Positions 1-2,608 of a DNA stretch of 20,812 bases are shown in pieces (the first letter of the stretch is position 1; the number at the start of each line of letters is the position of its first letter). Origin of the DNA: a virus. The stretch spans positions 1 to 20,812 of IMG/VR virus record IMGVR_UViG_3300025127_000359. One strand, written 5' to 3'. The notes beneath the pieces are model-generated. The model searched no databases. It saw nothing but the letters and a program-made list of their open reading frames with translations, and was not told where the DNA came from. Both the position numbers and the translations under genes were made by a program.

Positions 1-63
1 CACCTTAACTAGCGGTTGCCAGTAAGTTTATTCAGTCACTCCCATGTTGCGTCCAACAAATAT
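1..63 (-). other. Leader of the next transcript (no gene seen)
   Basis: After the predicted start near 57, the minus strand has GTTGGACGCAAC, a short 4-bp dyad, and a five-codon ATG frame (45-28) ending in TAA. No longer ORF begins before the window edge. It is probably the 5' leader of a downstream early gene; in cyanophages, recombination genes often follow gp23 (established context, not seen here). Confidence 0.4.
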
Positions 64-91
64 ATTATAGCATAAAAAAAGAGGGTGTCAA
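64..91 (-). promoter_or_regulatory. Consensus sigma70 promoter nested in the gp23 terminator
   Basis: On the minus strand TTGACA (91-86), 16 nt of spacer and TATAAT (69-64) match the bacterial consensus exactly, with the extended -10 TG (72-71). The -35 box lies in the terminator loop and 3' arm; the spacer includes the T-run. Transcription would start near 57 and leave the window. This is the host-type (early) promoter form used by T4-like phages, not the late motif seen elsewhere here. Confidence 0.8.
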
Positions 92-99
92 GCACCCTC
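74..99 (-). terminator. Rho-independent terminator after gp23
   Basis: On the minus strand a perfect 7-bp stem (GAGGGTG with CACCCTC) encloses a 5-base loop (CTTGA), and seven T follow. It begins 21 nt past the gp23 stop, so it ends the gp22-gp23 transcript. Its loop and 3' arm also contain the -35 box of the promoter annotated separately. Confidence 0.85.
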
Positions 100-120: not shown

Positions 121-1497
121 TTACATGATGTTTGTAACTTGAACTCTTCTGTAGTACTTGTTAGCGTTAGCTGTAAGTGCTCCAGATCCCTGTGTAAGTC
201 CACCTGAGAATGGGTTTGATACCATACCGTAACGAGTCTTAAACCCGATTTTTGGTTGGAATGTGTTAGGGTTGATTGCTCTAACTTGCTGTAACGGAAC
301 GTATGGGCAGTAGAAAAGACCTGCATCGTAAGGAGATGTGCCTTTGTAACCTGCAACATAGAAGTGCTTATCAGCAACGTTAGCAGAGTAAGGATCAACG
401 TAAACCTTGATCTTACCGTTTAATGTTCCAACAAGAGTTGAAGATGTGTCATCAACACCAGCAAGAGCATTGTTACCAGCAAGTGCAGGTGCGTAATCTA
501 GAACGCCTGCCATACCGAGAGCAGATGCAACGTCTGCAGAGCAGATTAAGATGTTGCCCTTCCCGCGACGAGTTTGCTGACCGATTGCGTTAGCATCTCT
601 TTCGATCTGGAATAGAAGTCCTTTGAACTTCTCAACAGACCATCTTCCATTTGAGTCAACGTCAAGGTCGAAGATACCTGCAGTAGCAGTATTGTTCTGA
701 GCACCTTTAACAGCGTTAACATAGATTGTTCTAACAACTTCCCTGTTAATTTCAGCAAGGATTTCAGTTGAAAGAATGTTTGCTAACTCTTGCTCGGCAT
801 CAAGACCATGAATTGCTTTCAAGTCTTGAGCAAGCTCGATGCTGTACTCTGCCTTTAACGCACGAGATTTCGCTGTAACAGTTACTTTCTCGATACTGAA
901 TCCCATTTCACGGAATGCAGTTGAAGTAGCACTGTCGTCTAATGCTTCAGCAGTCGATGTAGACATACCTTGAGCATCACCTGTTAACTCGTAAGTTCCT
1001 GGTGAAGAATCGTTTAGAACGGATGGGTTGTTACCTTGAGCGTCGTTAGTTGCATCAGTTGCACCAGGATCGTATGCTCCAGGACCACCAGAGACACCTG
1101 CGTTTGGCTCGTCGAAGAATGCTTCGTCGTAACCAGATGCGTTTGGATCTCTTTCAGCACCGTAGTTAGTTCTCATCGCAAAGATAAGTCCTGTAGGACC
1201 TGTCATTGGTTGAACGCCTGCGATGTCATATGCGATCAACATAGGCATTGATCTTCTGATCAATGAAATTAGAACTGGGTCGAAACCTGCAACAGGACCT
1301 GTAGCGGTGCTGCCACCTGTATAACCAGTTGTTTGTAAAGTCTCATTAAGGATTTGTCCTTCTTCGACTTGTGCTTTCTCTTGGTTCTCTAAAAGTTGTG
1401 CGACTACGCCTCTCTTATGAGCATCTTCAATTTCTGGAAGTGCTTCGTGATTTAGAACGGGTGCCCACTTCTCTTGGAGTTGCTTAATGTTAGCCAT
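121..1497 (-). CDS. 23: Major capsid protein gp23
   Basis: Encodes 458 aa; T4 gp23 is 521 aa and most cyanophage copies are near this length. It builds the head shell. Core signatures: GPVAGFDPVLISLIRRSMPM and LIAYDIAGVQPMTGPTGLIF, then FREMGFSIEKVTVTAKSRAL, KAEYSIELAQDLKAIHGLDA, NREVVRTIYVNAVKGA, and near the end GLFYCPYVPLQQVRAINPNT and FQPKIGFKTRYGMVSNPFSG. The N-terminal 52 residues are helical and polar and are probably removed by gp21: ILNE (49-52) fits the L-x-E rule. Upstream has GGAAA 9 nt before ATG. The stop is followed after 21 nt by a hairpin terminator. Confidence 0.97.
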   Translation of the reverse strand: MANIKQLQEKWAPVLNHEALPEIEDAHKRGVVAQLLENQEKAQVEEGQILNETLQTTGYTGGSTATGPVAGFDPVLISLIRRSMPMLIAYDIAGVQPMTGPTGLIFAMRTNYGAERDPNASGYDEAFFDEPNAGVSGGPGAYDPGATDATNDAQGNNPSVLNDSSPGTYELTGDAQGMSTSTAEALDDSATSTAFREMGFSIEKVTVTAKSRALKAEYSIELAQDLKAIHGLDAEQELANILSTEILAEINREVVRTIYVNAVKGAQNNTATAGIFDLDVDSNGRWSVEKFKGLLFQIERDANAIGQQTRRGKGNILICSADVASALGMAGVLDYAPALAGNNALAGVDDTSSTLVGTLNGKIKVYVDPYSANVADKHFYVAGYKGTSPYDAGLFYCPYVPLQQVRAINPNTFQPKIGFKTRYGMVSNPFSGGLTQGSGALTANANKYYRRVQVTNIM

Positions 1498-2598: not shown

Positions 2599-2605
2599 TA
2601 TTTAT
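2599..2605 (-). promoter_or_regulatory. Late promoter motif ATAAATA before gp22
   Basis: ATAAATA on the minus strand, ending 35 nt before the gp22 ATG (2563), just after the gp21 stop. No matching motif occurs in the 34-nt gap before gp23, so gp22 and gp23 likely share this promoter. Confidence 0.65.
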
Positions 2606-2608
2606 AAA

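Follow-up and report, generated by a model that had tools for sequence, protein, structure and literature searches.

What ends the transcript of the major head protein gene gp23 in this virus of marine cyanobacteria, and what is begun on the same DNA just beyond it? The window (the whole stretch analysed here, 20,812 nt) carries gp23 on the minus strand; its stop codon lies at 123-121, and a hairpin follows on the same strand some 20 nt further on. A preliminary description had proposed that a gp23 terminator and a promoter, TTGACA-N16-TATAAT with an extended TG, share bases at this point. This was confirmed on the minus strand, and the 7-bp stem, 5-base loop and T7 run after gp23 are exactly the bases described (Table 1). 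The hairpin has the sequence form of an intrinsic terminator, a GC-rich stem of 7 to 9 bp and then the U-tract (T7). The stem can be extended to 9 pairs (101-79) when one G-U and one A-U pair are included, and folding of the core is predicted at −10.8 kcal/mol (−13.5 kcal/mol with flanks). The promoter matches the sigma70 consensus at 12/12 positions, with a 16-nt spacer (85-70, minus strand) and the extended TG. It is also, as had been claimed, the sole consensus match in the window, no second 12/12 site being present in the 20.8-kb record, where the runners-up reach 10/12.

Table 1. Features of the gp22-gp23 region and of the fused element, in window coordinates
Feature	Position	Strand	Details
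gp23, major head protein	121..1497	minus	gene upstream of the hairpin; 458-aa ORF, PHROG_138, E 2.1e-178
T4-late-type TATAAATA	2599..2606	minus	36 nt upstream of gp22; basis is position only
Intrinsic-terminator hairpin	81..99	minus	7-bp stem GAGGGTG (99-93) / CACCCTC (87-81), loop CTTGA (92-88)
T7 run, terminator U-tract	74..80	minus	inside the promoter spacer
−35 box TTGACA	86..91	minus	TTGA in the hairpin loop, CA in the 3' arm
Extended −10	64..72	minus	TG (72-71), C, TATAAT (69-64)
Predicted transcription start	57 ± 1	minus	seventh base past the −10; inferred from spacing
manA RNA (RF01745), 5' part	1..58	minus	model positions 1-61 of 192; cmscan

Although the first reading was right on the overlap of terminator and promoter, it overlooked both the product, the manA RNA (RF01745), and the fact that the contig ends at base 1. 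Used as a query, the first 130 bases matched many unrelated places in cyanophage genomes, and a conserved element past the −10 box was therefore suspected. With gathering scores as the threshold, Rfam had given no match for the window as a whole; a rescan of the 130 bases by E-value detected the manA RNA, positions 58-1 scoring 52.1 bits (E = 3.8e-13, 3'-truncated; cmscan). The scan at gathering scores was empty because the RNA is truncated: the cut-off of 55.2 was set for full length, and the 58 nt present score just under it. The RNA is incomplete because the contig ends inside it, so that the closing pseudoknot strand CCUCCC in the 3' half, present at orthologous loci, lies beyond the contig end. 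Full-length homologues at the orthologous gp23 site score 172-190 bits against RF01745, well over its curated threshold, with 186.9 bits for locus L323, the closest relative found (91% identical over 1.5 kb). The start predicted from the promoter falls on model position 1-2 of the manA RNA.

Elsewhere, too, manA was found within 100 nt of a contig end, in 7 of 52 fully covered viral contigs against 1.8 expected. Assemblies probably break at manA because this stretch is so alike between viruses, and with viral contigs tending to break there the RNA would be under-seen in metagenomes.

On the sequence evidence, we consider it very probable that an intrinsic terminator and a sigma70 promoter are fused here into one compact element, which ends the gp22-gp23 transcript and starts the manA RNA. 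The hairpin (99-81) and the T7 run would stop the late gp22-gp23 transcript at about 74-80, and the host RNA polymerase with sigma70 would use the same stretch of DNA, binding at TTGACA and TATAAT and starting at ∼57. That start would be the first nucleotide of the manA RNA, giving it an exact 5' end of its own. Sharing of the bases is possible since each use concerns a different transcript. The fusion would also insulate the two units, heavy late capsid transcription being halted ahead of the manA RNA; that such insulation is the selective reason for the design we infer, as we do the early timing and the working of both signals. For the other end of the late transcript, the T4-late-type TATAAATA upstream of gp22 is a plausible candidate start, one of three such matches in the window, a number not above chance.

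The assignment of a promoter to the manA RNA was borne out by manA loci gathered from viral contigs and isolates. A sigma70 promoter of 11-12/12 stands immediately upstream of 134 of the 159 distinct loci, compared with 0.7% of control windows, and most of the remaining loci have, by eye, TTGACA with TATAAA at longer spacing. A T-run hairpin overlaps the −35 box in 72 of 157 manA promoters (46%, against 1.3% of random positions) and is absent from about half of the loci; the loci share ancestry, and these counts are not independent. A Watson-Crick stem of at least 6 pairs is formed by 35 of 140 loci with their own arms, compared with a mean of 8.3 and a maximum of 17 when arms were swapped between loci. 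Much of the pairing is thus lost on swapping, which shows co-variation of the two arms about a TTGACA that stays constant. In four loci (L111, L131, L147 and L160) a tRNA-Thr ends just 5' of the manA RNA, with zero bases between the two in L111 and L160, which fits a discrete 5' end. Exactly one manA RNA was found in each of six complete phage genomes, its site in complete genomes varying between after gp23, after regA, after pstS and before gp32. Each of 12 complete cyanophage genomes contains 2-9 exact matches to TTGACA-N15-18-TATAAT, all lying on one strand, compared with 0-2 matches to the reversed pattern.

Five manA promoters (L026, L040, L101, L120 and L158) combine TTGACA with TATAAATA, that is, a sigma70 −35 joined to a T4-late-type −10, and dual early and late use of these promoters is possible. 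When 84,980 bacterial and archaeal genomes were scanned for the pattern, six matches were obtained, three of which were confirmed as manA RNA. One lies on a 189-kb contig of a Prochlorococcus single-cell assembly; a host origin was rejected for this copy, since contig 3 of the assembly has a gp23 (65% identical), making it probably co-captured phage DNA.

Is the manA RNA a transcript in its own right, or does this promoter make an ordinary mRNA with the manA RNA as its 5' leader, controlling the following gene in cis, for instance as a riboswitch? Weinberg et al. 2010 (PMC2864571) scored both the RNA nature of manA and its cis-regulatory role as certain, and a switch function as probable; Rfam also classes it as cis-regulatory, and a promoter at the 5' end of the RNA suits a leader too. 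Among 122 distinct loci, 64 have a close ORF, starting a median of 23 nt after the manA RNA with no terminator between, so that a leader role is possible at such loci; these ORFs include at least 15 that are gp32-like and 8 that are talC-like. Against a leader, the next gene is preceded by a terminator in 29 of the 122 loci, by a terminator-like GACC element in 11 and by a tRNA in 8, the remaining 10 having none of these features (terminators were counted by simple rules, and are present in 1.3% of random windows). Thus, manA is closed off in 48/122 loci (about 40%), and the published 'cis-regulatory' label misfits some copies. At the gp23 site itself a terminator follows the manA RNA in L323, P-HM1, MED4-213 and L047. 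Moreover, the downstream genes are of many kinds, and an expression platform shared among them was not seen. We therefore regard a leader as a somewhat unlikely product of this promoter.

In many phages the manA RNA has the look of an independent unit, and in others it may serve as a leader. At the window locus it probably forms a transcript of its own, ∼230-250 nt long and ending at a second terminator like that of the nearest relatives, and we lean towards a stable RNA that acts in trans; a cis-regulatory role is unlikely there, the label in general standing unrefuted. A broader proposal, which we put forward tentatively, is that manA may be mainly a free-standing, trans-acting early RNA with a dedicated promoter, present once per cyanophage genome, and that the fusion may be a repeatedly evolved packing and insulating module. 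No literature on manA RNA expression was found among open-licence papers, and the P-HM2 transcriptome paper (PMC5082946) makes no mention of noncoding RNAs.

Two further arrangements were seen 3' of the manA RNA. A conserved element of ∼41 nt, AGACCTAAGATGCAACTC..GAGTCGGGCAGATGGTCT, lies directly 3' of it in 20 distinct loci (e.g. L019 from 3492, L049 and L087), often with a T-run next, and has no Rfam match. In L029, L036 and L059 the terminator after the manA RNA is followed directly by another TATAAT, so repeating the order of terminator then promoter.

At the orthologous site the hairpin and the boxes are both kept in P-HM1, MED4-213, P-RSM4, S-SSM5 and L323, with the spacer shortened to 14 in P-HM1 and the −10 reading TATAGT in P-RSM4. 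The order in L323 is gp23, the fused terminator/promoter, the manA RNA and a terminator (AAGACCTTCGGGTCTT plus a T-run). By alignment, TTGACA is retained in all related manA loci at gp23. The comparison of relatives that had been suggested at the outset thus gave co-conservation of the stem and the −35 box where the manA RNA comes after gp23. In metaG-MbCM1 the boxes are perfect and the stem is weakened, so the hairpin is dispensable. In five cyanophages with no manA after gp23, the alignment gives a terminator with another stem and loop and no TTGACA. A terminator kept without the boxes had been named as a pattern that would speak against the promoter; it does occur in cyanophages lacking manA at this place. 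It assigns the terminator to gp23, and the boxes to the unit that comes next, and leaves the promoter in the window unrefuted.

These comparisons also bear on whether the hairpin might be merely a palindrome around the −35 box, a regulator's site or a DNA structure, and no terminator. In many loci the dyad has its centre at or close to the −35 box, which is consistent with this; however, the U-tract comes after the stem, phages lacking the promoter still have a standard terminator behind gp23 at that position, and the stem sequences vary with compensation, unlike a protein operator. We judge the palindrome to be very improbable.

In L320 the fused element occurs twice (300-370 and 1418-1488), as a 71-nt direct repeat (92%) flanking an insert of ∼1.1 kb between gp23 and the manA RNA. 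The insert holds one 334-aa ORF of PHROG_2615 (unknown function) with no Pfam match, which suggests that cargo was inserted along with a copy of the fused element.

The preliminary description also missed that the fused design is not peculiar to gp23: the fusion is found as well at manA loci after regA, at a glutaredoxin-like gene and at further genes, and in other phages. Nor is it exclusive to manA, an idea that was dropped in view of the glutaredoxin-like gene and the further cases. This cassette stands ahead of the glutaredoxin-like gene in P-SSM7 (homologue: PHROG_22 thioredoxin domain), and in L279 the fusion follows gp23 and precedes a small ORF, with no manA RNA there. Scanning viral contigs for TTGACA...T6ATG.TATAAT gave 98 distinct cases. 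A hairpin of at least 6 pairs is present in 16 of 65 clustered non-manA cases, compared with 1.5 expected and a maximum of 6 when upstream flanks were swapped. The fusion thus stands ahead of protein genes as well and reappears with stems that are unrelated, which makes it a reusable module. Earlier reports of fused terminator-promoter elements in phages were not found among open-licence papers, and may exist.

That two AT-rich signals merely came to lie together by chance is extremely improbable. In favour of chance, sites of at least 9/12 are in no excess in the record (53, against 59.4 expected from shuffles), and the exact match, from which chance had earlier been argued to be unlikely, was insufficient alone. 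What excludes chance is the conservation between loci and between phages, with the co-variation of the arms and the recurrence with unrelated stems against it as well.

The observation is real; its parts are known (a terminator, a sigma70 promoter and the manA RNA), and their combination is new. An orphan RNA described in 2010 and widespread in marine cyanophages is tied to a defined strong promoter and a predicted start, so that its function becomes directly testable in cultured phages. Sequence evidence also points to a compact design in which one transcript is ended and the next begun within about 45 bp, and which recurs with unrelated stems.

The host-type sigma70 promoters of T4-like cyanophages were equated with T4 early promoters by Sullivan et al. 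2010 (PMC3037559). The window promoter has TTGACA-N16-TATAAT in common with these early promoters and differs from them in having its −35 in a terminator hairpin and a U-tract in its spacer. The intrinsic terminators of gp23 in Syn19, S-RIM12, ACG-2014a, P-SSM4 and P-SSM7 likewise consist of a GC-rich hairpin and T7-T8 just past the gene; unlike that of the window, their loops are without a −35 box, and in P-SSM4 a consensus promoter stands apart from the terminator, some 25 bp past it, whereas the two are fused in the window. The published manA motif (RF01745; PMC2864571) belongs to T4-like cyanophages, as with the relatives of the window; it was published as cis-regulatory, whereas here it starts at a consensus promoter of its own and, in relatives at the gp23 site, is followed by a terminator.
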